Shown: piece after piece, positions 6,467 through 22,709 of the stretch
Layout of the letters: the number at the start of each line of letters is the position of its first letter
Numbering within the stretch: position 1 is the first letter of the stretch
Assembly: GCA_024919195.1 (NCBI GenBank)
Contig: CP103436.1
Coordinates: forward strand, 682,001 to 746,000
From: Methylophilaceae bacterium LSUCC0717
Lineage (GTDB): Bacteria > Pseudomonadota > Gammaproteobacteria > Burkholderiales > Methylophilaceae
DNA: 64,000 nt
Direction of reading: 5' to 3'
Translations under genes and position numbers: made by a program
Notes under the pieces: model-generated
What the model was told of the DNA's origin: nothing
Seen by the model: only the letters and a program-made list of their open reading frames with translations
Databases searched by the model: none

Positions 6467-7954
6467 TTATTGAGAAATGATTCTCCATTGTTTGGGGCCA
6501 CTCGTATGAATTGAATTTCCTTCTTGATCGACAGCCACAGTAACAGGCATATCTTTGACCTCAAATTCATAAATAGCCTCCATACCAAGTTCTTCAAAAG
6601 CTATTTTTTGTGCTTTCTTAATAGCTTTGGAAACTAGAAATGCTGCGCCACCAACCGCAATCATATAAATCGCTTTATTTTTCTTAATCATCTCAATCGT
6701 TTGCTGACCTCTTTCGGCTTTGCCAATCATACCGATCACCTCTTGATTAAGAATAGATTCAGTAAATTTATCCATCCTGGTTGCCGTTGTCGGACCTGCT
6801 GGGCCGACTGCCTCATCTTGAATGGGATCTACTGGGCCAACATAATAGATCACTCTATTTTTTAAATCCACTGGAAGCTGATCACCATTAGCAATCATAG
6901 ACTCAATCCGTTTATGTGCGGCATCTCTAGCGGTAAGAATTTTTCCATTAAGCAATAAAGTATCGCCTACTTTAAATTGACTCATCCGCTCTTTTGTTAA
7001 TGAATCAAGATCAACTGCAATCGCATTCTCATTTGCTTGCCATTCTTCTTTTGGGTAAAAGTCTAACTTGGGGGGAACAAACTCTGCAGGACCATTTCCA
7101 TCGAGTTTAAAGTGAATGTGTCTTGTGGCTGCACAATTTGGAATAATAGCAACTGGAAGCGATGCAGCATGTGTTGGAAAATCATTAATTTTTACATCCA
7201 AAACAGTGGTGAGGCCACCTAGGCCTTGAGCCCCAATTCCAAGCTGATTAATTTTTTCATACAATTCAAGTCGTAATTCATCCACCCTTGATTTGGCGCC
7301 TTTATCTATTAACTCTTGGATATCAATGGATTCCATTAAAGACTCTTTCGCCATAATCACAGCTTTTTCCGCAGTGCCGCCAACACCTATTCCAAGAACA
7401 CCTGGTGGACACCAGCCAGCACCTAAAGTAGGAATGAGATCAAGAATGTAACCCACCAGATCATCAGATGGATTCATCATTTTTAAATGCGCTTTATTCT
7501 CTGACCCTCCTCCCTTGGCTGCAATCTTAAAGTCTATCGAGCGACCTTTAACTAGTCGAGTATGAATCACGGCAGGTGTATTATTCTTCGTATTTTTCCT
7601 TAACCCTAATGGATCCTCAACAATTGAAGCCCTTAGGGGATTTTCAGGATTTAAATAAGCCTCGGCAACACCTTGATTGATTAAATCATCGATTGTCTGG
7701 TCACCCTCAAATTCCACATCCATGCCGACCTCAACAAAAATAGTCACAATACCAGTGTCTTGACACAGAGGTCTCTTGCCTAAAGCTGATAATTTTGAAC
7801 TCGTTAATATTTGCAACATGGCATCTTTAGCTGGTTTTGATTGTTCCTTCTGGTATGCTGCAGTCATCGCTTGAATGAAATCTTCGGAGTGATAATAGGA
7901 TATGTACTGCAGCGCGTCACTGACGCTAGAAATAATATCTTGGTTTTTAATCAT
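6467..7954 (-). CDS. Fumarate hydratase, class I (4Fe-4S), possible mesaconase
   Basis: The protein is a single-chain class I fumarase of 495 residues, the iron-sulfur type, hydrating fumarate to malate. Family motifs include CQDTGI near residue 60, a GAGWCPPGVLGIGVGG region, PNCAATRH, and a C-terminal VGPAGPTTATRMD and IGKAERG. The three cluster cysteines can be placed in the CQD, GWCP and NCAA segments. Class I fumarases are also known to interconvert mesaconate and citramalate, which matters here because the operon carries a CoA ligase and CitE-like lyases. It is the last gene of the leftward operon, 3 bases after the ligase gene. Confidence 0.93.
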   Translation of the reverse strand: MIKNQDIISSVSDALQYISYYHSEDFIQAMTAAYQKEQSKPAKDAMLQILTSSKLSALGKRPLCQDTGIVTIFVEVGMDVEFEGDQTIDDLINQGVAEAYLNPENPLRASIVEDPLGLRKNTKNNTPAVIHTRLVKGRSIDFKIAAKGGGSENKAHLKMMNPSDDLVGYILDLIPTLGAGWCPPGVLGIGVGGTAEKAVIMAKESLMESIDIQELIDKGAKSRVDELRLELYEKINQLGIGAQGLGGLTTVLDVKINDFPTHAASLPVAIIPNCAATRHIHFKLDGNGPAEFVPPKLDFYPKEEWQANENAIAVDLDSLTKERMSQFKVGDTLLLNGKILTARDAAHKRIESMIANGDQLPVDLKNRVIYYVGPVDPIQDEAVGPAGPTTATRMDKFTESILNQEVIGMIGKAERGQQTIEMIKKNKAIYMIAVGGAAFLVSKAIKKAQKIAFEELGMEAIYEFEVKDMPVTVAVDQEGNSIHTSGPKQWRIISQ

Positions 7955-7957
7955 AGT

Positions 7958-9577
7958 TTAGCGAACCGTTGATTGAGAGACTGCAATAGATTTATCAATA
8001 TTTTTTCTTAATATTTTACCATTTTTGGTTTTAGGAAATTCATGGGCAATGTAAATGGTTTTTGGAGCCTTGTAAGCGGCTAAATGATTTTGTCCAAACT
8101 TAAGAAGATCATTAGGATCTGGCTGTTTGCCTTCATGTGGCAGAATATAAGTCACTACTAATAATTTATCTTTTTCAATTTCTTCCCCAATCGCTGCACA
8201 ATCAGCCACATCAGGATGAGATTTAAATACACGCTCAATTTCATATGGAGATACACGATAACCAAAGCTTTTAATTATGTCGTCTTTTCTTCCTAAAAAC
8301 CAAATATAGCCATCCTCATCATATTTCGCATAATCGCCTGTAAAGAACCAACCGCTATGTAAATGCTTATCCGTTTCTTCGGGTAAATTCCAATACCTTA
8401 AAAATAAACCTGGGTCACTATCAGGAACACATATCATCCCCTCTTCTCCTGTTTTAACCTCTTCTAAGGTGTCAGGATTTATTAATTTAATATCATGTCC
8501 TGGTTGAGGAAAGCCTGCTGAGCCTGGACGGATGGGGTTATATTTATTCTCAGAAAGATAATATGAAAATTCTGACATACCTACCGCTTCAAATATATCT
8601 TGGTTAAATCTACCTCTCCATTGATTTAGCACCTCATCAGATAAATGCTCACCAGCGCTCATACAATACCTTAATGACGGAACATTCTCAGCCTTAAAGT
8701 CGGTCTTTTGTAAGATCTGTCGATAAATCGTTGGAACACCAATAAAAATTGTAGCACTGTGTTTTTGGATCAACTTCATCCATGTGTCAGCATGATTTTT
8801 TCCTTCATACACCACGATGGTTTTTCCTAGATGTAGTGGATCCATCAATCCAGATCCCAAAACATATGTCCAATTAAATTTTCCTGAGTGAACAATACGA
8901 TCATCTTTGCCCTCAAAGTCGAACCAATATTGGGATGCAGGCTTTCTCCCAATAATAGCTCGATGCGCATGTAAAACTCCCTTTGGATAGCCTGTAGTGC
9001 CTGAGGTATAAACTAGGTATGCCGGATCATTCGCCTTGGTATTTACAGAAAAATTAATTTTTTTTATCTTATCGATTTCTTGTTGCATATCAAAAATATG
9101 AAATTTATCTGACTCTTCTACATCCCCAACCCCTGTCAAGAAAATGTATTTCAGCTGTGGAGGAAGATTATGCTCTTGTAACGATTTCCACATGGATTTA
9201 TCCGTGACCAAAGCCGTTGCTTGAGAATCATTAGCTAAGTAAACGACCTCTTCCGCTGTTAATAAAGTTGATGTCGGTACGGAAACATACCCTGCCTTCA
9301 TGGCGCCTAAAAAAGAGATGGGGTAGTCAAGAGAATTTGGAAGGCGAATAAGAACTCTGTCTTCACTTTGTAAGCCTAAATTGATCAGACATTGAGCAAA
9401 CTGATCCGTCTTTATAGCCAATTCTTTAAAGCTAATTTGGTCAGTGCCAAGCTCATCATTCTCAACAATCATGGCCAACTTATTTTCAAATTCCGTTCCA
9501 AGATGAATGGACGAACATAGCTGACCAATATTTATTTCCTCAGGAACATTCCATTCCCACTCAAACTTTTGAATCAT
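7958..9577 (-). CDS. AMP-forming acyl-CoA synthetase (substrate unknown; possibly a C3-C5 acid)
   Basis: This is an ANL-superfamily ligase that activates a carboxylic acid with ATP and joins it to CoA. The P-loop-like YTSGTTGYPKG is at residues 190-200. A GMSEFSY motif, the FTGDYAKYDEDGY hinge region, GRKDDIIKSFGYR and the catalytic Lys521 in KNGK are all intact. Overall it resembles the benzoate-CoA ligase and medium-chain acyl-CoA synthetase group. The start codon overlaps the upstream CitE-like stop (TAATG). From context (mesaconase-type fumarase, mesaconyl-CoA hydratase, PrpC), candidates are mesaconate, citramalate, propionate or acetate. That assignment is inference. Confidence 0.85.
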   Translation of the reverse strand: MIQKFEWEWNVPEEINIGQLCSSIHLGTEFENKLAMIVENDELGTDQISFKELAIKTDQFAQCLINLGLQSEDRVLIRLPNSLDYPISFLGAMKAGYVSVPTSTLLTAEEVVYLANDSQATALVTDKSMWKSLQEHNLPPQLKYIFLTGVGDVEESDKFHIFDMQQEIDKIKKINFSVNTKANDPAYLVYTSGTTGYPKGVLHAHRAIIGRKPASQYWFDFEGKDDRIVHSGKFNWTYVLGSGLMDPLHLGKTIVVYEGKNHADTWMKLIQKHSATIFIGVPTIYRQILQKTDFKAENVPSLRYCMSAGEHLSDEVLNQWRGRFNQDIFEAVGMSEFSYYLSENKYNPIRPGSAGFPQPGHDIKLINPDTLEEVKTGEEGMICVPDSDPGLFLRYWNLPEETDKHLHSGWFFTGDYAKYDEDGYIWFLGRKDDIIKSFGYRVSPYEIERVFKSHPDVADCAAIGEEIEKDKLLVVTYILPHEGKQPDPNDLLKFGQNHLAAYKAPKTIYIAHEFPKTKNGKILRKNIDKSIAVSQSTVR

Positions 9578-10701
9578 TATAGTATTGCTCCATAAGGCCA
9601 GTTTTCACGAATTACTTGAGCTGGTAATTTATTCAAAACACTAATTGCAAAATCTGTATCTTCTTGATTTAAAGCTCTGAGTGCATGCGCTCTTAAAAGT
9701 GTCTGCAATGCTTTACCAAACATCGGAGGATCAAGCATTTCCCCCTCAAATTTAATTGCACCACCAAGCAATGCATCCGCTTCAATTGCAGCTTTTAATA
9801 CTCTTATTCTAAGATTAATTTCTGTTGGGGATGGAGTGTATGCTACTTTACACAGATGAATGTGTCCTGGATGAATCACCTGTTTTCCTGTCAATCCTTT
9901 TTCTGCTTCAGTCACTGCGTGACGATAAACGATGCGTGACTCATCATCCCCGTGCAAATCTAACCAGCGGCGAACATCATGTGGCTCAATAAATTTTTCT
10001 GGCATGATATGTTCACCAATTAAAGTTTCGACTCCTCCAATAACACCTTTACCAGCGATTCGAGCTTCAAACATAATTTGATTTAAAAAATAAGTCAGTT
10101 CCTCAATCCAATTGGTAGGTGTAATATTGATGCCCATGGCTTTGGAGAAATCATGAATACCAAACACCACATGTTTTACCGTGTTATAAGACATTAGGTC
10201 AGGAACGATTTTTAATGATCTTGGATGTTCAATAATTGGCTGAATCGTAATTTTTGGATTTAGGTCCAAGAGAATACTTGATAAATCTCTCACTTCAGCA
10301 GAGCCATAGGCTTCACCTGCTTTAGCCAGCATGACCACATCAACATAATCAGACACCACTTTTAATAAAGTAATATCTTTTTCAAACTCCGTTGTTCTGA
10401 ATGGATTGATTCGGATAGCAATTTGCACATCCGGTCTAGATTTTCTTAAACCACCCAGTTCTAATTTTAATAACTCTCGACTTAATTCTTTTTTACTACA
10501 TCCATCTTCCAAGTCAAAAATTAGAGTGTGAGCAATAGTTTGGTGAGCATGTTTCTTAAACCTAGTTGACGCAGCATCTAAATCCTCATAAGTGCTATTA
10601 GAGGGTGAATATTTCACAGGAGGATAATACAGCTGGATTCCAGGCCAAAACCCACCAAATAAATCTGACTCTATTTTTGAGATATTTTTTTCATTAATCA
10701 T
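9577..10701 (-). CDS. HpcH/HpaI aldolase, CitE-like acyl-CoA lyase
   Basis: The protein belongs to the CitE/malyl-CoA lyase family, which cleaves or forms beta-hydroxyacyl-CoA or malyl-type thioesters using Mg2+. Family features are present in order: LIFDLEDG, the Arg-containing IRINPFR, a metal-ligand Glu in PIIEHP, the metal-ligand Asp in FGIHDF, and GKQVIHPGHI. At 374 residues it is longer than the usual 290-residue CitE. It could be a malyl-, citramalyl- or methylmalyl-CoA lyase. The ATG at 10701 has a strong GAGGTGA box. It overlaps sdhE by 8 bases and the ligase gene by 1, so it is firmly inside the sdh operon. Confidence 0.85.
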   Translation of the reverse strand: MINEKNISKIESDLFGGFWPGIQLYYPPVKYSPSNSTYEDLDAASTRFKKHAHQTIAHTLIFDLEDGCSKKELSRELLKLELGGLRKSRPDVQIAIRINPFRTTEFEKDITLLKVVSDYVDVVMLAKAGEAYGSAEVRDLSSILLDLNPKITIQPIIEHPRSLKIVPDLMSYNTVKHVVFGIHDFSKAMGINITPTNWIEELTYFLNQIMFEARIAGKGVIGGVETLIGEHIMPEKFIEPHDVRRWLDLHGDDESRIVYRHAVTEAEKGLTGKQVIHPGHIHLCKVAYTPSPTEINLRIRVLKAAIEADALLGGAIKFEGEMLDPPMFGKALQTLLRAHALRALNQEDTDFAISVLNKLPAQVIRENWPYGAIL

Positions 10702-10912
10702 CACTCACCTCTTCTTTGATCAACTCTCTTAAATTTCGTGTAGATAAAATATTCCAAAGATCATTGTCTTGTTTTTTTAATATTTTTAATAAAGCGTTCT
10801 TCTCAATTAACGACAATGACTCATATTCGTTTTGATAAAAATCTCCCAACACAAGATCAAGCTCTAGCAAGCCTCTTCTGCTTTTATATCGAATAACATG
10901 ATCAATGTTCAT
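10694..10912 (-). CDS. sdhE: Succinate dehydrogenase assembly factor SdhE (FAD assembly)
   Basis: This 72-residue protein belongs to the SdhE/DUF339 family that promotes covalent FAD attachment to SdhA. The hallmark RRGLLELD motif is at residues 12-19 (RRGMLELD in most homologues), followed by the acidic helical tail. It overlaps sdhB by 4 bases (ATGA), the position expected for an SDH assembly factor. Confidence 0.92.
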   Translation of the reverse strand: MNIDHVIRYKSRRGLLELDLVLGDFYQNEYESLSLIEKNALLKILKKQDNDLWNILSTRNLRELIKEEVSDD

Positions 10913-11646
10913 GAAGACTCCTTTTTAAGTGAAAATATTTTCTTCACAGATGATTTTTTTCTTTTAAACTGCAATTCCTTGATACCAGATATTGCTTTTG
11001 CGGGACTTAATCCTTTAGGGCAAACATCAGCGCAATTCATAATGTTATGGCAACGAAACAAACGATCTTCATGGTCTAAAAATTCTAAACGCTCCTCGCC
11101 ACCTTGATCTCGAGAATCCGCTAAGAATCGATAGGATTGCAGCAATGCAGCAGGTCCCATAAATTTATCTGGTCCCCACCAGAAAGATGGGCAGGATGTG
11201 GTACACGCACCACACAAAATACATTCGTATAAGCCATCTAGCTTTTTACGATCTTCAGGGGATTGAAGTCTTTCAGTTTTGGGGGTCTCTTCATTGTTAA
11301 TGAAATATGGCTTCACATCATGGTAGTTTTTAAAAAATTGATCCATATCCACAATTAAATCTTTAATCACAGGAAGTCCTGGCATCGGGCGAATCACAAC
11401 TGGCTCTTTCAAATCCTTTAATTTGGTAACACAGGCTAAACCATTTTTTCCATTAATATTCATCCCGTCAGATCCACATACACCTTCGCGACACGATTTT
11501 CTTAAGGCTAAGGTTTCATCTTGTTGTTTTATCTTCATCAAGGCATCTAATAGCATCTGATCACCATCATCTAGATCAACCTCATATTTTTTCATGTAAG
11601 GTTTTTTATCAACTTCAGGGTCAAATCGATATACTGAAAACTTCAT
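10909..11646 (-). CDS. sdhB: Succinate dehydrogenase iron-sulfur subunit
   Basis: SdhB carries the 2Fe-2S, 4Fe-4S and 3Fe-4S clusters that pass electrons from SdhA to quinone. The N-terminal ferredoxin-like cysteines are in SCREGVCGSDG, and the C-terminal pattern CILCGACTTSCP and CHNIMNCADVCPKG is complete. It is 245 residues long, about normal for a proteobacterial SdhB. It lies 2 bases after sdhA and is translationally linked to sdhE. Confidence 0.96.
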   Translation of the reverse strand: MKFSVYRFDPEVDKKPYMKKYEVDLDDGDQMLLDALMKIKQQDETLALRKSCREGVCGSDGMNINGKNGLACVTKLKDLKEPVVIRPMPGLPVIKDLIVDMDQFFKNYHDVKPYFINNEETPKTERLQSPEDRKKLDGLYECILCGACTTSCPSFWWGPDKFMGPAALLQSYRFLADSRDQGGEERLEFLDHEDRLFRCHNIMNCADVCPKGLSPAKAISGIKELQFKRKKSSVKKIFSLKKESS

Positions 11647-11648
11647 AA

Positions 11649-13400
11649 TTAATACACCCTTTTTTTAAGTGGAAAAGTTTCCACTGTTAATGGTTTTAAA
11701 TTTACCGGACGATAACCAATGGTATTGGTTTGTGAGTAGTACAAGGTATGTTTTAACCATTGCTCATCATTTCTATCTTCAAAATCAGACCGGCAGTGAG
11801 CACCTCGACTTTCCTCACGCGCATGAGCAGATTCTATGGTGGCTTTAGCGACCTCAATTAAATTTTTTAATTCCAGAGCATCAATTCTTGCTGTATTAAA
11901 GACATTGCTGGTATCTGAAATTTGTAACCTTTCAGAACGTTCCGCAATATCGTGAATTTTTTTCACCCCTTCTTTTAGTAATTCTGGGAATCTAAATACG
12001 CCGCAATGCTGTTGCATAGTGGAGCGTAAATCATTTCCTAGTTGGACAATATTTTCAGAACCTTTGCTTTGTGTATTCAAGGACGCCACTCTTTGTTGAG
12101 TAAATTCAACAGCTTCTTTAGGTATGTCAGGATATTTTGCTTTTTGATCAATAGAATCAATCACATGCAGCCCAGCAGCTCTGCCAAAAACAATTAGATC
12201 AAGCAGTGAATTAGAGCCTAATCGATTAGCTCCATGAACAGAAACGCAGGCACATTCACCGACGGCATAAAAATTTTCAACTCGATCGCCAGAATCATTT
12301 TTTCTGACCTGGCCATGTAAGTTTGTTGGAATACCACCCATCATATAATGGACAGTCGGCACAACAGGAATGGGGTCTTTGATTGGGTCGGCATTAGCAA
12401 ATTTAATTGCGATCTCACGTATGCCGGGCAATTTCTCATTAATTTTATCTTCTCCGAGGTGGGCTAGTTGCAAATAAACAGCATTTTTATTTTTTCCAAC
12501 ACCCTTGCCATTTTTTATCTCTGTGGCAATTGCTCTAGATACAACATCACGGCTCGCAAGATCTTTAGCATTTGGCGCGTATCGTTCCATAAAACGCTCG
12601 CCATCCGAATTTTCAAGATACCCGCCCTCACCACGACAACCCTCTGTCACCAACACTCCAGCTCCCGCAATCCCAGTCGGATGGAACTGCCAGAATTCCA
12701 TGTCTTCTAAAGGAATGTTTGCTCGAGCAGCCATGCCCAATCCATCCCCTGTATTAATATAAGCATTAGTGCTTGCCTCAAATATTCTGCCCGCACCGCC
12801 AGTGGCAAAGATTGTTTTTTTGGCCTGAAAGATGGCTAACTGACCCGTGGCCATCTCATACGCAATAACCCCTAGCACCTCATCATCCTTTGTCTTAATC
12901 AGGTCTAGCGTGCTCCATTCAATGAAAAACTGAGTGTTATTCTTTACATTTCTTTGATACAACGTATGCAGCATCGCATGACCGGTACGATCAGCAACGG
13001 CACAGGTGCGTGACATGGCAGACTCACCAAAATTTTTAGTCATTCCACCGAATGGACGTTGATAGATTTTGCCATCTGAGTTTCGATCAAATGGCATGCC
13101 ATAGTGTTCTAACTCATAGATTGCATCAGCCGCATTCTTACACATATATTCAATCGCATCCTGATCACCCAAGTAATCTGATCCTTTAATCGTGTCATAC
13201 ATGTGCCAGATCCATTTATCTTCCGTCACATTCCCAAGTGCTGCAGCTACTCCTCCCTGAGCTGCAACAGTATGAGAACGTGTCGGAAAAACTTTTGACA
13301 ACACAGCAACATTTAATCCTGCATCTGAGAGCTGCAGAGCACTTCTTAAACCAGCTCCACCAGCACCCACAACTAAGACATCAAATTTAAAATGCTGCAT
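11649..13400 (-). CDS. sdhA: Succinate dehydrogenase flavoprotein subunit
   Basis: SdhA oxidises succinate to fumarate. The FAD-binding [10 protein letters not shown] motif is at the N-terminus, followed by the SHTVAAQGG segment that includes the His for covalent FAD. The substrate region includes [15 protein letters not shown], and [13 protein letters not shown] lies near residue 390. It is 583 residues long, typical of the family. It sits between sdhD and sdhB with 2 to 3 base gaps, and the assembly factor is two genes downstream. Confidence 0.97.
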
Positions 13401-13403
13401 CTG

Positions 13404-13751
13404 TTAAATATCCAAAAGAAATAAAACTAAAAAAATAATCTGTAAAACCATACTAAAAAGTAAAATTAAATATATGGTCTGATTCATCCATTTATTTTTA
13501 ATGTAATCATCAATCACATGCTGAACCCCTATCCAGCCATGGAAAAAAGTAATTAAAAATAAAATAGTAATAATTGAGCGGTGAATGATGGATTCAAAAA
13601 AATCCACCCAGGCTTGATAATCCAAATGGTCAATTTGGGCCCAATTAAAAATAAGATAGCCAATAAAAAAATATAAACAAAATGCCGAGAATCTTTGGTA
13701 AAGCCACTGTGTCATTCCGCCAAACAAGTTGAAAAAAGGATTTTTTACCAT
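13404..13751 (-). CDS. sdhD: Succinate dehydrogenase membrane anchor subunit
   Basis: This 115-residue protein has three membrane segments and the conserved pattern QRFSAFCLYFF near the first helix and HGWIGVQHVIDDY near the third, as in SdhD. It binds heme b and quinone together with SdhC. The ATG at 13751 has an AGGGA box upstream and is preferred over TTG at 13757. It overlaps sdhC by 7 bases. Confidence 0.9.
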   Translation of the reverse strand: MVKNPFFNLFGGMTQWLYQRFSAFCLYFFIGYLIFNWAQIDHLDYQAWVDFFESIIHRSIITILFLITFFHGWIGVQHVIDDYIKNKWMNQTIYLILLFSMVLQIIFLVLFLLDI

Positions 13752-14119
13752 AACCAAATCCCTGCAATAAATGTCAGAAGGAAACTCACCACCAAAACAA
13801 TCTTACTGGTCATCCGCGCAATAATCAGATCAACACCAAAATGCAAATCAAGCAGGAGGTGTCTTGTGCCAGCGATCAAGTGGTGAATAATGCCCCATAA
13901 CATGAGGCACTTGATTAACTTAAATAACGTCGTATCAAATAACAAAAGAACCCAGTTAAAGATATTTTCATTTTTTAATGACCAGTAGAGCGATATTGTC
14001 AACAATGGCATCAACACAAACAAAACAACACCGCTCACCCGGTGCAAAATCGAAACCATAGCAGGCACAGGAAATCGAATGGTGAATAGATTTAAATTTT
14101 TTGGATTTCTATTTTCCAT
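13745..14119 (-). CDS. sdhC: Succinate dehydrogenase cytochrome b556 subunit
   Basis: The 124-residue membrane protein has the SdhC signature: an N-terminal NRNPKNL segment, ILHRVSGV in the first helix and the heme-binding HHLIAGTRHLLLD region in the second. Three membrane helices are present. It overlaps the end of the malic enzyme gene by 11 bases and sdhD by 7, so the complex is produced from one transcript with malic enzyme. Confidence 0.94.
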   Translation of the reverse strand: MENRNPKNLNLFTIRFPVPAMVSILHRVSGVVLFVLMPLLTISLYWSLKNENIFNWVLLLFDTTLFKLIKCLMLWGIIHHLIAGTRHLLLDLHFGVDLIIARMTSKIVLVVSFLLTFIAGIWLW

Positions 14120-15314
14120 GAAATTCCTTTAAAGCCGCCAGGCGAACACTTTCTGCTACATACTCTTTTAATCTTGGATCAAATGGTTTAGGGATTATGT
14201 AGTCAGGTCCAAATTTTAATTCCTTCACTTGATAGGCATCCAGCACGGACTGTGGAACCTCCTCTTTCGTTAATTTAGCCAATCCCTCAGATGCGGCTAA
14301 CATCATATTCATTGAGATCTGTGGCGCTCTTGCATCCAAAGCCCCTCTGAATAAAAAAGGAAAACCCAGTACATTATTTACTTGATTTGCATAATCAGAT
14401 CTTCCTGTTGCCATGATGACATCATTTCTTACAGATCTAGCTTCAACTGGTGTGATTTCAGGATCAGGATTGGCTAGAGCAAAAACAATCGGATCTCTTT
14501 TCATTTTTAATAAGTATTCTTTTGGAAATAAATTTGCCCCAGATAAGCCGATAAATACATCCGCATCTTCAATAATTTCTTCCAATGTGGTTGCTTTGGT
14601 GTCACTTAAAAATTCTTGGTTATAGATATTGGCATCATCTCTTGATTTATTTAATACCCCTTTTCGATCAACGAGATGGATGTCATTTACCCCCAAATGT
14701 CTGATTAAACGCGCACAGGATAACCCAGCAGCGCCAGCACCAAGAAATACCACCTTAATATCAGTAATTTTTTTATTAACAATTTCTAATGCATTTTGTA
14801 ATCCTGCAGCCACGATCACTGCTGTTCCATGTTGATCATCATGAAACACAGGAATGTTAAGACGCTTTTTTAATTCATCTTCAATATAGAAACATTCTGG
14901 AGCCTTAATATCTTCAAGATTGATACCACCAAAGGTAGGTGATATCGCAGCAACAGTTTCTATAAACTGATCAGGATCAGATAAATCGATCTCAATATCG
15001 TATACATCTATATCGGCAAATTTTTTAAAAAGGATGCCCTTGCCTTCCATGACTGGCTTACTGGCAAGCGCTCCCGTATCTCCAAGACCTAAAACAGCAG
15101 TTCCATTGGAAATAACCGCAACCAAATTTCCTTTGTTGGTAAATCGATAGGCATTGTCTTTATCGTTTTGAATGGCTCTGACTGGCTCTGCCACTCCTGG
15201 TGAATAAGCGAGAGATAAGTCATAGGCTGTGTTACACTGCTTTATCGAAGCAATCTCAATTTTTCCAGGCCTTGGATGCTCGTGATAATTGAGCGCTTCA
15301 TCTTTTAAAGACAT
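14109..15314 (-). CDS. Malic enzyme, short form without phosphotransacetylase domain
   Basis: Malic enzyme decarboxylates malate to pyruvate with NAD(P)+. The malic N-domain carries YSPGVAEPV and the FHDDQHGTA metal and catalytic region. The NAD-binding domain carries [12 protein letters not shown]. At 401 residues it lacks the C-terminal phosphotransacetylase-like domain of MaeB. The start is the ATG at 15314 ([11 protein letters not shown], the family's usual beginning), with GGAG upstream. A longer frame to 15413 would run into the GntR gene and adds no family sequence. It starts 1 base after the regulator's stop. Cofactor preference cannot be decided from the sequence. Confidence 0.92.
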
Positions 15315-15315
15315 A

Positions 15316-16026
15316 TTATTCAAGCTCCGTCTGATAATGATAATTTTCAGTGAGGCACAATCCCAACCTCCACTCAACAGGCTTCTCACCATAGGTATAT
15401 GAGAGTCTCTCAATGCTTAATAATGGTGTTTTTTTTGGGATGCTTAATAATTTAGAAACCTCATCTCCTGCGGCTACCGCCTTAATTTTTTCATTTGCCT
15501 TAAGCATTTGAACCCCATAGCGTGATTCATAAAGTCGATATAGGGACCCTTTTTTTTGATTAATCATCTCCTCGTTTAATCCTTTAAAGGCAGATGATGA
15601 AATATAAATTTCATCAAGGATAAGGGGTTTTTTGTCAAACGTAAGTAATCTCTTAATCTGAAATACAGGTGAGCCTGGGATAAGGTTTAATTGTTTAGCC
15701 ACATAGCTTGAAGATCGTATTTTCTTAAAAGAAAATAATTCACTTTCCAGTTTTTCTTTATGGCCTTTGGTTGAAGTTAGTCTTAAAAATCGTAATTGGA
15801 TCTGCTCTTCATCATGAGTGGTTACATAGGTCCCTTTTCCTTGACGACGAACTAATATTTTCTCATTTGAGAGAGCATCAATGGCTTTTCGAACGGTTCC
15901 TTGGCTGACTTTAAAATCATTCGCCAATTCAATCTCACTTGGAATCATGTCCCCTGCTCTCCACTTACCAGAAACTAACTCTTCCGTGATTCTTTGTTTA
16001 ACCTGTACATATAAAGGTATGTTCAT
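15316..16026 (-). CDS. GntR-family transcriptional regulator with UTRA domain
   Basis: An N-terminal winged helix of about 70 residues (PSEIELANDFKVSQGTVRKAIDAL, then RRQGKGTYV) is followed by a UTRA ligand-binding domain, so this is a HutC-type GntR repressor or activator. It is the first gene of the leftward operon and is divergent from the lyase/prp operon. It probably controls both and responds to an acid or CoA-thioester intermediate. ATG at 16026 is preferred; a TTG at 16032 adds two residues. The gap upstream contains repeated TATATAAGAC motifs that are candidate operators. Confidence 0.88.
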   Translation of the reverse strand: MNIPLYVQVKQRITEELVSGKWRAGDMIPSEIELANDFKVSQGTVRKAIDALSNEKILVRRQGKGTYVTTHDEEQIQLRFLRLTSTKGHKEKLESELFSFKKIRSSSYVAKQLNLIPGSPVFQIKRLLTFDKKPLILDEIYISSSAFKGLNEEMINQKKGSLYRLYESRYGVQMLKANEKIKAVAAGDEVSKLLSIPKKTPLLSIERLSYTYGEKPVEWRLGLCLTENYHYQTELE

Positions 16027-16057
16027 ACTCAATAAATAAAAATTTAACTTATATATA

Positions 16058-16074
16058 TCTTATATAAGACTAAA
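16058..16074. promoter_or_regulatory. Candidate GntR operator, regulator-proximal
   Basis: A perfect 12-base palindrome TCTTATATAAGA (16058-16069) overlaps a TATATAAGACTAAA unit at 16061-16074. The same 14-base unit recurs at 16172-16185. It is close to the GntR start, as expected for autoregulation. This is inferred from sequence and position. Confidence 0.5.
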
Positions 16075-16171
16075 TAAAAAAGCAACAAGAAATTAAAAAA
16101 AAATATTTTTAACTAAGTTATTGATTTTATTTGTATATATATAAAATACATATAAATTTATAGATTAAACA

Positions 16172-16185: not shown

Positions 16186-16192
16186 AATAATA

Positions 16193-16220
16193 TTGACATA
16201 TTTTTTTTATTATTTAGAAT
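16193..16220 (+). promoter_or_regulatory. Sigma-70 promoter of the lyase/hydratase/prp operon
   Basis: A consensus TTGACA at 16193-16198 and TAGAAT at 16215-16220 are 16 bases apart. Transcription would start near 16227, about 29 bases before the ATG at 16256. Confidence 0.7.
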
Positions 16221-16255
16221 GTAGTACTAATTAATAATTTATTCACATTGATACG

Positions 16256-17137
16256 ATGAATACAAATACTTACAAACCAAGACGTTCGATGTTGTATGTA
16301 CCTGGATGCAACAAAAGGTATCTAGAAAAAGCAAAAGAATTAAGAGCAGATACAATTATTTTGGATCTCGGGGACCCTATCTTGCTGGATGCTAAAATCC
16401 AATCAAGAGATAACGTGATTGAGATGCTTCAAGAAAGAGGTTATGGTAAAAGAGAGGTTGTCGTTCGTGTTAATGATTTTGACTCACCCTGGGGTTTGGA
16501 TGACATCAAAGCAGTTGCCCCACTTCAACCTGATGCAATATTGTTTCCAAATATTGAATCTAAAGAAGATATCCTTAATTGTATTGCCGAGTTAGATCGA
16601 TGTGGAGGTCAAGATATCTCAGTCATGGTGATGATTGAAAGTCCTTTGGCTGTTTTAAATGCAAAAGAAATTGCAAGTGCATCAGATCGGATTATTTGTA
16701 TGGTCTTAGCAACATCAGATCTCATATCCCAAATGTATGCTAGGACCACGCAAGATCGAATCGCACTCACCACCAGTCTATCATTAGTCATTTTGGCAGC
16801 ACGCGCTTATGGCTTGTCAGTGATTGATGGTATTCATAGCAATCTTAAAGATACTGCTTCCTTTGAGTATGCCTGCCGAATGGGTAGAGATATGGGTTTT
16901 GATGGAAAATCCTTAGTCCACCCAGATCAGCTGGCTTACGCCAATGATGCTTACACACCGAAGCCTGCTGAAATTGAACAAGCCAAAGCTATCATTAGTG
17001 GGCTTGCAGAAGCTAACGCTTCAGGAAGAGGAACAGTTGTTGTCGATGACAAATTAGTAGAGCACCACCATGTTACCGCTGCAAAAAGATTACTGGTGCA
17101 GTATGAAATGATGGAAGAATTGGAAAATAATATATGA
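16256..17137 (+). CDS. CitE-like CoA lyase (malyl/beta-methylmalyl/citramalyl-CoA type)
   Basis: This 293-residue protein is of normal CitE length and fold. It begins with RRSMLYVPG, has the catalytic Arg in VVVRVND, the metal Glu in MIESPLAVLNA, the metal Asp in ATSDL and ends the barrel with GKSLVHPDQL. One oddity is the strand that usually reads DLEDAV or DLEDSV, which here reads DLGDPI, losing the acidic Glu. It is the first gene of the rightward operon and overlaps the mesaconyl-CoA hydratase gene by 4 bases (ATGA). This pairing suggests beta-methylmalyl-CoA as substrate, from glyoxylate and propionyl-CoA. The substrate is inferred. Confidence 0.85.
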   Translation: MNTNTYKPRRSMLYVPGCNKRYLEKAKELRADTIILDLGDPILLDAKIQSRDNVIEMLQERGYGKREVVVRVNDFDSPWGLDDIKAVAPLQPDAILFPNIESKEDILNCIAELDRCGGQDISVMVMIESPLAVLNAKEIASASDRIICMVLATSDLISQMYARTTQDRIALTTSLSLVILAARAYGLSVIDGIHSNLKDTASFEYACRMGRDMGFDGKSLVHPDQLAYANDAYTPKPAEIEQAKAIISGLAEANASGRGTVVVDDKLVEHHHVTAAKRLLVQYEMMEELENNI

Positions 17138-18195
17138 GCCAACATCAAGGAAATTTTTTAGAGGATTTTTCACCTAACCAGGTATTTCAGCACGCTATTC
17201 CTAGAACGATTTCTGACGGAGATGTGTCGATGTACCTCGCTCTTGTAGGTAATCGCAATCCCCTGCACTGCTCTATTTTAACTGCAAATAATATTGGTTT
17301 AAATGCCGCCCCAATCGACGATATGTTGCTTTTCCATATCGCATTTGGTCGAACAGTGAATGATATCTCTCTAAATGCGGTAGCTAATCTAGGCTATGCA
17401 AATATTCAGTTTAAGAGAAATGCTTATGTTGGAGATACTATTCGCTCAGAGTCTCAAGTTATAGGCGTAAAAGAAAATTCAAATAAGTCGACGGGTGTAG
17501 TTTATGTGAGGTCAACAACATTCAATCAAGATAATGAGGAAATACTATCCTGGATTCGCTGGGTAATGGTTCCAAAAAGAAATAATGACTCAAAAATAAA
17601 TGAACTCATCCCAAATGATTTACCAGAGATTTCAGATTTATCTCAGATTCATCGCAATGACGTCTCATTTGCGGATTTCAATCCTATAGATACCGGATCA
17701 GATTTATTATTTGAGGACTATGAAATTGGTCAGGTCATAAATCATTCTTCTGGAATGACTATTGATGAAACAGACCATACCCTTGCAACGAAACTCTATC
17801 AGAATAATGCAAAACTGCACTTTGATGCTCACATGATGAAATCTACCCCATTCAAAAGACGTTTAATTTATGGAGGACACATTATCTCATTATGCCGGTC
17901 ATTATCATTTGAAGGTCTAGAAAATGCTCTGCAGGTGGTGGGTGTAAATTCAGGTGTTCATTCAAATCCAACATTTGCTGGAGATACCATTTACACAAGA
18001 ACAGAAATTATCGATAAATTTGAGCATGACAATTTTCCAGGTGCTGGAATTTTAAGGTTACGACAATTTGGCATAAAAAACACACCTAGTGCTCTTATTG
18101 AAAATGTTACCAGTGAGAAAAATGGGAAAAAAATTTACAATCCAAGCATAGTTCTTGATATTGATTATTTTGTAGTAATTCCAAAAAGGAAATAA
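17134..18195 (+). CDS. mch: Mesaconyl-CoA hydratase (beta-methylmalyl-CoA dehydratase)
   Basis: The protein has two MaoC-like hotdog domains and matches mesaconyl-CoA hydratases of the ethylmalonyl-CoA and 3-hydroxypropionate pathways along its length (353 residues; the Rhodobacter enzyme has about 343). Shared segments include GNFLEDF near the start, PRTISDGDV, APIDDMLLFHIAFG, NLGYA, then in the second domain LYQN-AKLHFD, YGGHIISLCRSLSF and NSGVHSNPTFAGDTIY. It interconverts mesaconyl-CoA and beta-methylmalyl-CoA. It lies between two CitE-like lyases and upstream of prpBCD. No ethylmalonyl-CoA genes are in the window. Confidence 0.9.
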   Translation: MSQHQGNFLEDFSPNQVFQHAIPRTISDGDVSMYLALVGNRNPLHCSILTANNIGLNAAPIDDMLLFHIAFGRTVNDISLNAVANLGYANIQFKRNAYVGDTIRSESQVIGVKENSNKSTGVVYVRSTTFNQDNEEILSWIRWVMVPKRNNDSKINELIPNDLPEISDLSQIHRNDVSFADFNPIDTGSDLLFEDYEIGQVINHSSGMTIDETDHTLATKLYQNNAKLHFDAHMMKSTPFKRRLIYGGHIISLCRSLSFEGLENALQVVGVNSGVHSNPTFAGDTIYTRTEIIDKFEHDNFPGAGILRLRQFGIKNTPSALIENVTSEKNGKKIYNPSIVLDIDYFVVIPKRK

Positions 18196-18197
18196 TT

Positions 18198-19187
18198 ATG
18201 GCTTTAACTCATCCTAACGAAGCATTATTTACAGGTGAAAAACCTTTTCCAATGATTCCTGTGTGTGAACACTTTGCAGGTAGTGAAAAATTAATTACTA
18301 AGGCACTCGGTTTGCAAGAAACATTAGGCCCTATTTTTAATATTACCTGTGACTGCGAGGATGGTGCTGCTGCTGGCCAGGAGCAGGAACACGCTGAGAT
18401 GATTGTTCGTATTCTCAATTCTGAAGCTAATCAATTTAAGATGGCTGGCTCAAGGATTCATGACTATACTCATCCTCATTGGAAAAAAGATGTGGATATC
18501 CTCGTCGCTGGCGCAGGAAACGTTCTCAGTTATATTACGATTCCAAAATCTACCAATGCGGAGCAGCCAAAAGAGATGATTACTTACATTCAAAAGGTGG
18601 CCAAAGAGAATAATATTAATCGTGAAATTCCAATTCACGTGCTTATTGAAACCCATGGAGCTCTCGCTGACGTGCAAAACATTGCAAAACTTCCTTGGCT
18701 TCAAGTGTTAGATTTTGGGCTTATGGATTTTGTCAGTGGTCACCATGGTGCTATCCCTGCATCGGCAATGCGAAGCCCAGGTCAATTTGATCATAAATTA
18801 CTAGCAAGAGCTAAAAGCGAGGTGGTTGCGGCGGCAATAGCCAATGGCGTAGTGCCTGCACATAACGTCACATTGGATTTAAAAAATACCGAGACCACGT
18901 TCTCTGATGCGAAAAGAGCACGTGATGAGTTTGGTTTTATGAGAATGTGGAGTATCTATCCAACGCAGATCACAGCAATTGTCGATGCGATGAAACCAAA
19001 TTTTAATGAAATTCAAGATGGAGCTGAAATATTGATACTCGCCCAAGATGCAGACTGGGGGCCGATACAATTTAAAGGTGAGCTGCATGATCGAGCCACT
19101 TATCGGTACTTCTGGGAAATCCTTCAAGCTGCAAAACAAACAGGTCAAGACATTCCTAAGGAAGCTGACCAGAGATTTTTTTCATAG
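18198..19187 (+). CDS. CitE-like CoA lyase, long form (L-malyl-CoA/beta-methylmalyl-CoA lyase type)
   Basis: This 329-residue HpcH/HpaI family protein differs from its neighbour at 16256. The acidic strand reads CDCEDGAAAGQE, the Arg is in GSRIHDY, the metal Glu in VLIETHG, the metal Asp in FGLMDFVSGHHG, and the closing motif is MWSIYPTQI. The insertions resemble malyl-CoA lyases more than citrate lyase subunits. It starts 2 bases after the hydratase gene. Substrates may be malyl-CoA, beta-methylmalyl-CoA or citramalyl-CoA. A function paired with the hydratase is likely. Confidence 0.82.
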   Translation: MALTHPNEALFTGEKPFPMIPVCEHFAGSEKLITKALGLQETLGPIFNITCDCEDGAAAGQEQEHAEMIVRILNSEANQFKMAGSRIHDYTHPHWKKDVDILVAGAGNVLSYITIPKSTNAEQPKEMITYIQKVAKENNINREIPIHVLIETHGALADVQNIAKLPWLQVLDFGLMDFVSGHHGAIPASAMRSPGQFDHKLLARAKSEVVAAAIANGVVPAHNVTLDLKNTETTFSDAKRARDEFGFMRMWSIYPTQITAIVDAMKPNFNEIQDGAEILILAQDADWGPIQFKGELHDRATYRYFWEILQAAKQTGQDIPKEADQRFFS

Positions 19188-19199
19188 AAAGGTTATTTG

Positions 19200-20072
19200 A
19201 TGTCTGCCGGTAAAAAATTTAGAGATGCCCTTGCCCAAGAAAAACCTCTACAAGTAATTGGTGCGATTAATGCGTACCATGCTCTCCTTGCCACCCAAAC
19301 TGGGTATAAGGCCTTATATCTTTCCGGTGGAGGTGTTGCGGCTGGTTCATTAGGGATTCCTGACTTAGGTATATCAACCTTGGATGATGTATTAATAGAC
19401 ATCAGAAGGATTACAGATGTAACTGATACCCCCTTGCTTGTTGATATTGATACAGGCTTTGGTGGTGCATTAAATATATCTCGGACAATTAAGTCGACGA
19501 TTAAGGCAGGTGCGGCAGCTGTACACATTGAAGATCAGGTGCAAGCGAAACGATGTGGTCACCGCCCAAATAAGGCCATTGTTTCCCAACAGGAGATGGT
19601 GGATCGGATTAAGGCGGCAGTTGATGCTAAAACAGATCCAGACTTTGTCATTATGGCTCGAACCGATGCCTTGGCAGTAGAGGGCTTATCAAGCGCAATT
19701 GATCGGGCATGTGCTTGTGTCGAAGCTGGTGCAGACATGATCTTTCCTGAGGCCATGACAGAATTGTCCATGTATAAGGAGTTTTCTAATGCAGTCAAAG
19801 TCCCTGTTCTGGCAAATATTACGGAGTTTGGGTCTACCCCGCTCTTCACTAGAGAGGAATTGGCAGGTGCTGACGTCAGTCTTATCTTGTATCCATTAAG
19901 CGCCTTCCGAGCTATGAATAAAGCGGCCTTATCCGTTTATGAATCAATACGAAAAGATGGAACACAACAAAATGTAATTGAGCTGATGCAGACCAGAAAT
20001 GAATTATATGAGTTTCTCAATTATCATGCGTACGAAAAAAAATTAGACGAGCTCTTTGAGCAGGAAAAATAG
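19200..20072 (+). CDS. prpB: 2-methylisocitrate lyase
   Basis: PrpB cleaves 2-methylisocitrate to pyruvate and succinate, the last step of the methylcitrate cycle. The barrel has the active-site loop KRCGHR at residues 117-122 with its catalytic Cys119, the metal Asps in VDIDTGFGG and the VHIEDQ strand. Its 290 residues match the PrpB length. The ATG at 19200 is 7 bases after an AAAGG box, and a TTG three bases upstream is ignored. KRCGHR plus the neighbours prpC and prpD separate it from isocitrate lyase and PEP mutase. Confidence 0.95.
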
Positions 20073-20089
20073 ATTACGAGGGAGGATTT

Positions 20090-21235
20090 ATGAATAATGT
20101 TGCTGAAAAAAAAGTAAAAAAAGGAGTTGCCCTTGCAGGTGTAAATGCTGGAACAACAGCAGTTTGTACTGTTGGACACACAGGAAATGACCTGCATTAT
20201 CGTGGTTACGACATTTTAGATCTAGCAAAATATTCTAATTTTGAAGAAGTGGCTTATTTATTGATTCATGGTGAATTACCAAATTCTGATCAATTATCAG
20301 CATACAAAGATAAACTTAAGACTCTTCGAGATATTCCTGATGCTGTGAAGATTGCGTTAGAGCAACTTCCAAAAAATGCACATCCAATGGACGTGATGCG
20401 AACAGGATGCTCTGTCCTAGGAACAATTGAACAAGAAGGTGAAGATCGTGATATTGAAAATACAAAAAATATTGCTGATCGCCTTATTTCTTGTTTTGGT
20501 TCAATGTTGATCTATTGGTATCATTTTTCACATAATGGAAAGAAAATAGATTGTGTATCTGAGATGGATTCCATAGCAGGACATTTTCTATACTTATTGC
20601 ATGGCAAAGCTCCATCAGAGCTTCATGAAAAGGCAATGAATACTTCACTTGTATTGTATGCAGAGCATGAATTTAATGCATCTACTTTTACCTCTCGTGT
20701 CATTGCAGGAACCCTGTCCGATATGTATTCAGCGATCACAGGGGCTATTGGCGCACTTCGTGGACCGAAACATGGTGGCGCTAATGAAGCAGCGATGGAA
20801 ATTATTGCACGCTACAAAGATGCTGATGATGCTGAAAATGATATCCGTGAACGCATGGCAAGGAAAGAAATCATCATTGGTTTTGGACACCCTGTTTACA
20901 CTATTGGTGACCCAAGAAATGAAAGTATCAAATCTGTTTCAAGGGCATTATCAGAAGATGCTGGGGACATGAATTTATTTAATATCTCAGAAAGAATTGA
21001 GAAAGTAATGTGGGATGAGAAGAAAATGTTCCCTAATTTAGACTGGTACAGCGCATCAAGCTACCATCTGATGGGTATCCCTACTTCTATGTTTACTCCA
21101 ATTTTTGTAATCTCAAGAACAACAGGTTGGGCAGCTCATGTGATTGAGCAAAGGATTGATAATAAAATTATCAGACCAAATGCGGAATATACCGGCCCAG
21201 ATAACAGACCGTACACACCAATAAATCAAAGATAA
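20090..21235 (+). CDS. prpC: 2-methylcitrate synthase
   Basis: PrpC condenses propionyl-CoA with oxaloacetate. The citrate synthase fold is clear, with [13 protein letters not shown] (substrate His) near residues 220-233 and [13 protein letters not shown] (second His) near 265-277. It is 381 residues long, as in PrpC and shorter than the housekeeping GltA. A strong GAGGGAGG box precedes the ATG. The location between prpB and prpD supports methylcitrate synthase, although acetyl-CoA may be a side substrate. Confidence 0.94.
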
Positions 21236-21248
21236 AGAAAGGTAAAAA

Positions 21249-22709
21249 ATGTCTTCACACATTTCTAATGTAAGGCCTGAGCCCGATCAGGTCATCGTAG
21301 ATATAGCAAAATATGCAAATGAGTATGAAATTAACAGCGATGAGGCTTTAGATACCGCAAGATATTGCTTAATGGATACATTAGGATGTGGTTTAGAAGC
21401 ACTGAGTTACTCAGCATGCACAAAACTTTTAGGGCCGATTGTTCCAGGAACCATTGTTCCCAATGGTGCGAAAGTTCCAGGAACTAATTATCAATTAGAT
21501 CCCATCAATGCTGCATTTAATATTGGCGCCATGATTCGATGGTTAGATTTCAATGACACCTGGCTGGCAGCTGAATGGGGTCATCCATCAGATAACTTGG
21601 GAGGTATTTTAGCGGTTGCAGATTGGCTATCAAGAACAAGGATTGCGGAGGGACAGTCCCCTCTCATTATGAAAGATGTGCTCATCGCCATGGTCAAAGC
21701 CCATGAAATTCAAGGAGTGATCGCTCTTGAGAATAGTTTTAATCGAGTCGGTTTAGATCATGTGCTTTTAGTGAAAGTAGCCTCAACAGCTGTCGTTGCA
21801 AAGATGCTGGGAGCCACATATGAGCAAATCATTGATGCTGTTTCAAATGCATGGTTAGATGGACAAAGTCTTAGAACCTACCGCCATGCACCCAATACAG
21901 GTTCCCGAAAATCATGGGCTGCGGGTGATGCGACCAGCCGTGCTGTGAGATTAGCGTTAATGGTTATGAAGGGTGAAATGGGATATCCATCCGCACTCAG
22001 TGCTAAAACATGGGGCTTTTATGATGTTCTATTTAAAGGCAAACCTTTTGAATTTACTCAGGCATACGGTTCCTATGTGATGGAAAATGTTCTCTTTAAA
22101 ATATCCTTTCCAGCTGAGTTTCATGCTCAAACCGCAGTGGAATGTGCCCTAGCTTTACATCCGAATAATATTGGCTTAATAGATACTCTAGAGAAGATTG
22201 ATTGTATTGATCGAATTGAAATTACTACACATGAATCAGCGATCAGGATTATCGATAAAACAGGTCCCCTAAATAACCCTGCCGATCGTGATCACTGCAT
22301 ACAGTATATGACTGCAATTGGTTTACTCAAAGGCAATCTTACCGCGCAAGATTATGAAGACGAGGTAGCAAATGATCCAAGAGTGGATGCACTTCGGGAA
22401 AAAATGACCTGTATTGAGAAACCAGAATATACCAAAGATTATCTTGATCCCGATAAAAGATCGATTGCCAACGCAGTACAAATTTTTTACAAAGATGGCT
22501 CATCTTCTGAACAGGTCGCGGTTGAATATCCGATTGGGCATCGACGACGCCGAAGCGAAGGTATTCCTGAATTGATTAAGAAATTTGAGATTAACCTGAA
22601 GCGTGAATTTGATAATACTCAGTCTGAGAAAATCATGAATCTTAATTTAGATATTGATTTACTGCAAAAAACACCAGTAAATGAATATGTCGATCTATAC
22701 ACTAAGTAA
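21249..22709 (+). CDS. prpD: 2-methylcitrate dehydratase
   Basis: PrpD dehydrates 2-methylcitrate to 2-methyl-cis-aconitate without an iron-sulfur cluster. The 486 residues match the MmgE/PrpD family: [14 protein letters not shown] near the start, [18 protein letters not shown], a [15 protein letters not shown] core and [15 protein letters not shown]. The hydration step to methylisocitrate needs an aconitase (AcnB or AcnD), which is not in this window. It is the last gene of the operon and overlaps the convergent small gene by 8 bases. Confidence 0.95.

Follow-up and report, generated by a model that had tools for sequence, protein, structure and literature searches.

The subject of this analysis is a divergent island of carbon-metabolism genes at positions 6467–22709 of a 64,000-nucleotide stretch of DNA (the window; GC content about 0.32–0.42) from Methylophilaceae bacterium LSUCC0717, an OM43-type organism whose genome (G000) is a single contig of 1,271,458 bases that is 99.9% complete. 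The minus-strand arm of the island encodes gntR, malic enzyme, sdhCDAB, sdhE, the CitE-like protein cyl3, an AMP-forming acyl-CoA ligase and a class I fumarase; the plus-strand arm encodes the CitE-fold protein cyl2, mesaconyl-CoA hydratase (Mch), a third member of that family (cyl1), and prpB, prpC and prpD (Table 1). A preliminary description of this DNA had named these genes except gntR; the open reading frames and profile searches confirm that each is intact and belongs to the family claimed, and malate:quinone oxidoreductase (Mqo) is encoded in the window as well. At E <= 0.001, the three CitE-like proteins of the island are the only matches to PF03328 in the genome, and the island copy is the sole sdhA above the TIGR01816 cut-off. 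Mch is a two-domain MaoC protein that aligns over nearly its full length with solved chains (4e3e, 2e-99; the beta-methylmalyl-CoA dehydratase 8hgn, 3e-93, residues 3–351). Three cysteines of the fumarase are kept in 71/71 aligned rows, and the match of the malic enzyme to PRK12861 is confined to the N-terminal half of that profile.

Table 1. Positions of the island's features, and of Mqo, in the window
Feature	Position	Strand	Basis
Class I (Fe-S) fumarase, candidate mesaconase	6467..7954	-	PF05681 + PF05683
AMP-forming acyl-CoA ligase (LIG), candidate mesaconate or citramalate/malate ligase	7958..9577	-	profile matches
cyl3, CitE-like, complete catalytic set, Gln275 as in human CLYBL (citramalyl-CoA lyase)	9577..10704	-	PF03328, residue columns
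SdhE (Sdh5), 72 aa	10694..10912	-	PF03937, 2.5e-14
sdhB, sdhA, sdhD, sdhC	10909..14119	-	family profiles
Malic enzyme, short form	14109..15314	-	PF00390 + PF03949; PRK12861 7-403/764
GntR/UTRA regulator	15316..16026	-	PF00392 + PF07702
Predicted GntR operator, palindromic core TCTTATATAAGA at 16058-16069	16054..16075	+	matrix and shuffles; weaker copy near 16165
Sigma-70-like promoter, TTGACA-16-TAGAAT, ahead of cyl2	16193..16220	+	11/12 bases
cyl2, CitE fold, thioesterase-type Glu269 replacing catalytic Asp; Gly39 replacing Glu44 of MCLR	16256..17137	+	residue columns
Mesaconyl-CoA hydratase (Mch), two-domain MaoC type	17134..18195	+	8hgn 3e-93; PF19315
cyl1, CitE-like, 3qqw/3r4i subfamily; malyl-CoA-lyase Trp kept; Met176 before Mg-binding Asp	18198..19187	+	residue columns
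PrpB methylisocitrate lyase	19200..20072	+	548 bits, cut-off 353
PrpC methylcitrate synthase	20090..21235	+	679 bits, cut-off 550
PrpD methylcitrate dehydratase	21249..22709	+	883 bits, cut-off 575
Malate:quinone oxidoreductase (Mqo), outside the island	41628..43085	+	TIGR01320 560 bits, cut-off 550

The island has been published before, as the ‘methylcitric acid cycle’ cluster of Methylophilaceae, and stands here in a genome of OM43 type. The published list (mmol_0748-0766 and m301_0686-0703) comprises prpCBD, cyl1, maoC, cyl2, gntR, mdh, sdhABCD, cyl3, prpE, fum and one gene printed as ‘can’, the ligase being labelled prpE and the CitE-like proteins cyl1-3 (PMC4109929). All the members from prpCBD to fum, including a malate enzyme and the ligase, stand in one divergent cluster here; the difference is aconitase (acnB), a member of the published cluster that is not among the island genes (the rest of the genome was not searched for it) and that is placed elsewhere in OM43, where the cluster is present, having been lost in Ca. 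Methylopumilus (PMC6794327). The gene order is described as conserved, OM43 included (PMC4109929, PMC3728764, PMC6794327, PMC5120137). In the sections of these papers that deal with the cluster, the role of the cyl and maoC products is unstated and the substrate is termed unknown (PMC3728764); nevertheless the cluster is highly expressed by Methylotenera in situ, with gntR among the most over-expressed genes and the metabolite processed again called unknown (PMC3728764). All four OM43 genomes of one survey carry prpBCD, and methylcitrate-cycle transcripts rise with high-molecular-weight dissolved organic matter (DOM); in OM43 strain NB0046, expression of a row of citrate lyase-like, CoA ligase and small ‘Neut_0862’ genes is highest under that condition (PMC5120137). 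Going by their order and annotation rather than by sequence, we take these three genes as cyl3, ligase and sdhE.

A conserved order, a separable module and a predicted operator

The order from fumarase to prpD recurs in 13 of 20 loci fetched from related genomes (three are cut by contig ends and four differ), so that the genes which the preliminary description had grouped are not confined to unrelated places elsewhere. Among those 13, sdhD or sdhE sometimes goes undetected, and in L041 cyl2 is split into two pieces. Of 295 candidate stretches that a cyl3 probe picked out in a genome collection, 272 encode a relative; the analysis covers the 80 best loci, and row and locus counts given below for cyl1, cyl2, cyl3 and the operator spacers include near-copies. 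The ligase directly follows cyl3 in all 75 loci with room for it, Mch lies between cyl1 and cyl2 in 63 of 65, and sdhA is nearby in 61 of the best 80. Ten loci (eight labelled Gallionellales, plus two ‘uncultured Nitrosomonadales’ placed with them by the cyl3 tree) consist of cyl1-mch-cyl2 / gntR / cyl3-ligase, and the stretches available contain neither prp nor sdh nor fum; cyl1 was not seen in one of these (L121), and malic enzyme follows the ligase in two. In L131 and L049 the genes form a single operon, cyl3-ligase-cyl2-mch-cyl1. The set cyl1-mch-cyl2/cyl3-ligase is a separable module: in Gallionellales and a few others it also occurs with none of prp, sdh and fum adjoining it.

Four loci of Methylophaga (Gammaproteobacteria; L085, L090, L108 and L115) carry the module together with prpDCB and malic enzyme, and in those that extend far enough (all except L115) genes that by eye resemble ppsR and ppsA lie downstream of the ligase. 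In the midpoint-rooted cyl3 tree Methylophaga is nested inside Methylophilaceae (fork support 95/90): it was probably by transfer that Methylophaga acquired the module, and we dropped the idea that the extended cluster arose independently there. Two further contigs of metagenome-assembled genomes (MAGs) are probably misbinned: L056, labelled ‘Bacteroidetes’, is 98% identical to the window in cyl3, and L069, labelled ‘Sulfuritalea’, nests among Methylotenera. In another genome (G032; L048:8580-10088) an Mqo-like gene, identified by eye, lies inside the cluster between cyl2 and gntR; the mqo of the window is about 19 kb from prpD.

The divergent control region contains a palindrome, TCTTATATAAGA, that with one mismatch allowed matches twice in the window against 0.40 expected, a count reached in 3 of 100 shuffles. 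Centred on this palindrome, the site in the gntR-cyl2 spacer reads TATATCTTATATAAGACATAAG, and in 80/80 gntR-cyl2 spacers the best match covers at least 17 of its 22 bases (21 distinct sites). A matrix trained on those same 80 spacers gives the window site a score of 32.4; in loci outside the training set scores run from 21.6 to 35.9, against a maximum of 7.6 in shuffled loci. Such additional sites occur in two more gntR-cyl2 spacers (L237, L238), between prpB and gntR-maeB-sdh (L235), and, in L102 and L120, between an acetyl-CoA synthetase gene (AcsA above its cut-off) and cyl3-ligase-UPF0114-fumarase; yet another lies beyond the end of prpD in L236. Bearing in mind that L102 and L237 belong to one genome, and L120 and L238 to another, the predicted operator joins in trans, in two genomes, parts that the window joins in cis. 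We infer that the site is bound by GntR and that the island is probably one regulon under its control. The gene between ligase and fumarase in these two loci (L102:12887-13660 and L120:8563-9342) encodes a membrane protein, of which the L102 copy matches UPF0114. The sigma-70-like site ahead of cyl2 is one of two in the region, a number not above that in shuffles (mean 3.9).

CitE-like proteins, hydratase and ligase

The preliminary description counted three CitE-like lyases. Within the CitE superfamily, replacement of the catalytic Asp (Asp299) by Glu is described solely for the malyl-CoA thioesterase clade (PMC3832036). This position is Glu in 83/83 rows of cyl2, and Asp in cyl1 (80/80) and cyl3 (95/95). 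Because Glu is the mark of that clade, cyl2 is probably a hydrolase of the malyl-CoA thioesterase type rather than a third lyase, which would leave two lyases and one hydrolase.

We also read 29 further Mch loci, from a draw of 398 proteobacterial genomes in which 67 have Mch at 1e-60. In 11 of the 29 a cyl2-like protein adjoins mch, with the catalytic Glu in 11/11 and sdh also present in several; this is the arrangement of mcl2-mch in R. sphaeroides, and synteny of this kind is suggestive of kinship between cyl2 and Mcl2. The same loci lend some colour to the notion that mch and the cyl genes are relics, without current flux, of a proteobacterial cyl2-mch-sdh cluster or of the ethylmalonyl-CoA pathway (Mcl1/Mcl2/Mch), which likewise places Mch beside an Mcl2-type protein. 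We consider this notion very improbable. The key enzyme of that pathway, crotonyl-CoA carboxylase/reductase (Ccr), is above its cut-off in 0/38 genomes of a panel (29 genomes reached through cyl3 loci, G000, G047, G050, G058, and five controls without mch that are at least 91% complete), and on this ground we rejected the pathway itself. Moreover, catalytic residues are kept over 80–95 rows, the DNA site is conserved, and the genes are retained in streamlined genomes.

The two remaining CitE-like proteins differ at a position that is Trp in malyl-CoA lyases: cyl1 keeps the Trp in 80/80 rows, and cyl3 has Gln in 95/95 rows, as does the human citramalyl-CoA lyase CLYBL (bacterial RipC has Ala). 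This pattern fits a glyoxylate-type lyase for cyl1 and a pyruvate-type lyase for cyl3. CitE-type lyases use (S)-citramalyl-CoA (PMC3832036, PMC6689899), and class I fumarases hydrate mesaconate and use (S)-citramalate (PMC4682846), so the stereochemistry of the proposed steps fits. Rv2498c, another CitE-like protein, has weak activity on propionyl-CoA plus glyoxylate (PMC6689899). With MCLR, citramalyl-CoA is formed only to 1 : 2.5 at a 200-fold excess of pyruvate (PMC3832036); therefore the direction must be imposed by a hydrolase or a ligase. The itaconate-degrading system (RipABC/Ict-Ich-Ccl) is not matched by the island proteins at its curated thresholds, the best scores being 125 bits against a cut-off of 340 for RipB and 137 against 375 for RipC.

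The best NCBIfam score of the ligase is 320 bits, far below the PrpE cut-offs (827 and 955) and the AcsA cut-off too; its published PrpE identity is thus not reached at curated cut-offs, and comparing pocket motifs by eye assigned no substrate. We regard the ligase as the likeliest activator of the C5 acid, because a class III CoA-transferase (PF02515) was not found in G000 or in 30 more of the 38 panel genomes (it is present in seven), although the search did not extend to class I CoA-transferases or to succinyl-CoA synthetase. One could instead assign the cluster to plain catabolism of propionate or of C5 dicarboxylates: the ligase would act on external substrates supplied by DOM, as a propionyl-CoA (or mesaconate/itaconate) synthetase, the methylcitrate cycle would do the work, and cyl1, Mch and cyl2 would be accessory or repair enzymes. 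The printed name prpE (PMC4109929) and the increased expression with high-molecular-weight DOM (PMC5120137) are in keeping with this assignment. It nonetheless strikes us as improbable, given the low PrpE score and the strict linkage of the cyl genes and Mch, which are kept even in a 1.27 Mb genome; furthermore, the neighbour families that recur within 5 kb of 19 minimal or variant loci (in at least three loci) are an acs/prpE-like ligase and two Methylophaga genes, with no transporter among them.

A candidate bridge to the methylcitrate cycle, and its direction

The searches for other routes bear on what the module might supply. The E1 component of 2-oxoglutarate dehydrogenase was not found in G000, nor in any Methylophilaceae or Methylophaga of the panel; 16 of the 38 genomes have it (ten of Gallionellales type, G085, G086, G087, G050, G047 and G058). 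Malate synthase (PF01274) has no match in G000 and is present in 7/38. PF00463, the isocitrate lyase family, matches only PrpB in G000; isocitrate lyase proper occurs in G047 and G058, which have partial modules without adjoining cyl3-ligase, and in none of the panel genomes with cyl3-ligase. A glyoxylate cycle was thus not found in G000. Full-length glycolate oxidase was found in none of four OM43-type genomes, where GlcD matches are partial (at most 79 bits). Two routes that rely on class III CoA transfer, the 3-hydroxypropionate bicycle and the methylaspartate cycle, were rejected for this genome, which has no PF02515 match. By contrast with the five module-less controls, in all of which PrpB is below cut-off or absent, PrpB is present in 33/33 panel genomes bearing the module or part of it (32 above cut-off, and one split over two contigs).

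We tentatively favour the reading that the module is a bridge between acetyl-CoA plus pyruvate and propionyl-CoA plus glyoxylate which feeds the methylcitrate cycle, leaning towards propionyl-CoA plus glyoxylate as the direction, though we would put this somewhat below an even chance. Two parts would be combined: the methylcitrate cycle with a succinate and malate clean-up (PrpCDB, Sdh, fumarase and malic enzyme, with Mqo encoded elsewhere), and the five-gene module (cyl1, Mch, cyl2, cyl3 and ligase), which would have (S)-citramalate and mesaconate as free intermediates and would apparently operate without a class III CoA-transferase. From families, order and residue marks we infer the following substrates. 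cyl3 would condense acetyl-CoA and pyruvate to (S)-citramalyl-CoA, and the thioesterase-type cyl2 would pull this unfavourable condensation by hydrolysing citramalyl-CoA (and malyl-CoA). Fumarase would dehydrate citramalate to mesaconate, the ligase would form mesaconyl-CoA, Mch would hydrate it to beta-methylmalyl-CoA, and cyl1 would cleave the latter to glyoxylate and propionyl-CoA. The methylcitrate cycle would turn propionyl-CoA into pyruvate and succinate; a lyase and cyl2 together would make malate from glyoxylate and acetyl-CoA, to be consumed by malic enzyme or Mqo. The propionyl-CoA for which the methylcitrate cycle lacks a source would thereby come from the module, which would also be a route for C2 assimilation or oxidation in cells without 2-oxoglutarate dehydrogenase or a glyoxylate cycle.

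This direction would explain why the module is tied to PrpB, AcsA and malic enzyme, and why no other source of glyoxylate was found. The bridge would account for the joint travel of cyl1-3, maoC and ligase, and it offers a concrete chemistry and an expected regulon for methylcitrate-cycle genes that are strongly or more expressed in Methylotenera and OM43 (PMC3728764, PMC5120137). If it is true, abundant marine and freshwater methylotrophs can turn C2 units into glyoxylate and malate by a route that standard annotation overlooks. On a wider reading, which we consider unlikely, the island would give streamlined obligate methylotrophs, in which 2-oxoglutarate dehydrogenase, isocitrate lyase and malate synthase were not found, a complete central cycle of an alternative kind, held in one GntR regulon and also transferred to Methylophaga. 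A lyase and the diverged CitE-fold thioesterase would then act as apparent (S)-citramalate synthase and malate synthase. Mesaconate derived from citramalate would be converted by ligase and Mch to glyoxylate and propionyl-CoA, and the cycle would be closed by the methylcitrate cycle together with Sdh, malic enzyme and pyruvate dehydrogenase, so that on balance acetyl-CoA is oxidized or converted to C4 acids. The prp genes lie next to module genes in all 17 module genomes without 2-oxoglutarate dehydrogenase, against 4/16 of those with it (in some MAGs the genes are on different contigs); we treat this pattern as a lead only, for which shared descent and transfer account in large part.

Three further arguments were tried and not retained. 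Five genomes with malate synthase and no isocitrate lyase (G073, G074, G080, G085 and G086) seemed to point to glyoxylate made by the module, an argument that is weakened because all five have GlcD matches of 518–572 bits, so that glycolate can explain their malate synthase. That cyl2 is an exclusive stand-in for malate synthase is unsupported, cyl2 being present in six genomes with malate synthase as well. The apparent lack of sdh in Methylophaga was dropped as proof of malate from malyl-CoA: open reading frames of G083 look by eye like another SdhA/SdhB type.

Several points weigh against the bridge in the direction given above. At the level of the enzymes, cyl1 has Met (80/80) and cyl3 has His (95/95) immediately ahead of the Mg-binding Asp; malyl-CoA lyases keep an Ala there, which admits the propionyl methyl group, and bulk is said to hinder propionyl-CoA and beta-methylmalyl-CoA, so both residues argue in part against the use of propionyl-CoA. 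A second-shell residue described as absolutely conserved across CitE-like enzymes, Glu44, is Gly in 81/83 rows of cyl2 (residue 39 of the protein in the window), unlike the 11/11 cyl2-like homologues adjacent to Mch, which keep it; because of this replacement the activity of cyl2 may have drifted, and we regard cyl2 as a diverged relative of the thioesterases for which hydrolysis is a prediction. The equilibria of MCL enzymes favour cleavage of citramalyl-CoA (PMC3832036), and succinyl-CoA synthetase, which was not searched for in the genome, can activate itaconate (PMC12290011). At the level of the genomes, the operator precedes the prp operon in 0/10 Gallionellales loci and is also absent from L049, L131 and L062; many panel genomes are MAGs of unstated completeness; the absence of isocitrate lyase is weak evidence, because the module-less controls lack it too; and Methylophaga, having seemingly obtained its module by transfer, is not an independent case.

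Other such points are those that the reverse direction would accommodate. Run in reverse, the same module would be a second sink for propionyl-CoA beside the methylcitrate cycle: cyl1 would join propionyl-CoA and glyoxylate, Mch would dehydrate the product, cyl2 would free mesaconate, fumarase would yield citramalate, and the ligase would activate citramalate for cleavage by cyl3 to acetyl-CoA and pyruvate, while glyoxylate may come from malate by way of the ligase and cyl3. This would resemble the glyoxylate half of the 3-hydroxypropionate bicycle, which likewise turns propionyl-CoA and glyoxylate into acetyl-CoA and pyruvate; the difference is that the bicycle uses Mct and Meh, in place of the free acids, fumarase and ligase of the island. 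Gene neighbours follow consecutive steps of this route (cyl1-mch-cyl2; cyl3-ligase-fumarase), the invariant adjacency of cyl3 and ligase fits a ligase that makes the substrate of cyl3, and the Gln of cyl3 is that of CLYBL. In Arcobacter butzleri a fusion of ligase and CitE (AB1918) is reported and this direction is proposed (PMC2147049). In addition, the ppsA-like (pyruvate-consuming) gene follows the ligase in the three Methylophaga loci noted above, PrpE-like ligases (by best match, below cut-off) lie near the module in L062 and L111, and cleavage is favoured thermodynamically (PMC3832036). Adjacency of the genes, the fusion reported for A. butzleri and the ppsA-like gene would all be explained by the reverse direction. 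Against it, the OM43-type genomes have neither a full-length glycolate oxidase match nor isocitrate lyase for a supply of glyoxylate; a CitE-fold thioesterase would be chemically less likely to act on mesaconyl-CoA, an ester that lacks a hydroxyl for binding Mg; and the methylcitrate cycle by itself already uses up propionyl-CoA. On balance we hold the reverse direction to be possible but doubtful.

The idea of such a circuit is not new, just as the cluster itself was already published. In 2007, almost the same circuit, joining citramalate and methylcitrate steps, had been put forward for A. butzleri, where ab1917-ab1921 encode CitE, acyl-CoA synthetase, enoyl-CoA hydratase, CitE and class I fumarase, and the same interconversion is drawn with a mesaconyl-CoA synthetase and with fumarase as mesaconase; A. 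butzleri differs in the fusion of the synthetase to a CitE domain, in having prpB/prpC with acnD/prpF, and in encoding 2-oxoglutarate oxidation (PMC2147049). We liken these proteins to cyl1-3 by their description, not by sequence. The preliminary description had compared its circuit to the citramalate cycle proposed for Rhodospirillum rubrum, coupled to the methylcitrate cycle. The steps from acetyl-CoA and pyruvate through citramalate, mesaconate, mesaconyl-CoA and methylmalyl-CoA to glyoxylate and propionyl-CoA are indeed shared; the R. rubrum cycle, however, handles propionyl-CoA by carboxylase and mutase and uses malate synthase, whereas G000 has the methylcitrate cycle and no malate synthase was found in it (PMC8307300). 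The haloarchaeal methylaspartate cycle likewise leads from mesaconate through mesaconyl-CoA and beta-methylmalyl-CoA to glyoxylate and propionyl-CoA, but employs the class III CoA-transferase (PMC5592240) that was not found in G000. Among the openly licensed papers (CC0, CC BY, CC BY-SA) that the searches listed, none was seen to apply the joined circuit to Methylophilaceae. What the present analysis adds is the conserved DNA site, the separable module, the thioesterase mark in cyl2 and the alternatives not found. The earlier observation of the island is confirmed, and its interpretation as a circuit is partly supported: it is chemically coherent, all its island genes are present and the alternatives searched were not found, but its ‘three lyases’ are not borne out.

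Elsewhere in the window, a run resembling pqqE, pqqD, pqqC and pqqB (60162-63304, read by eye) is as expected for a methylotroph, and a run at 53461-58967 resembles, again by eye, genes for sulfate assimilation (sulfite reductase, cysH, cysD, cysN and a ferredoxin).

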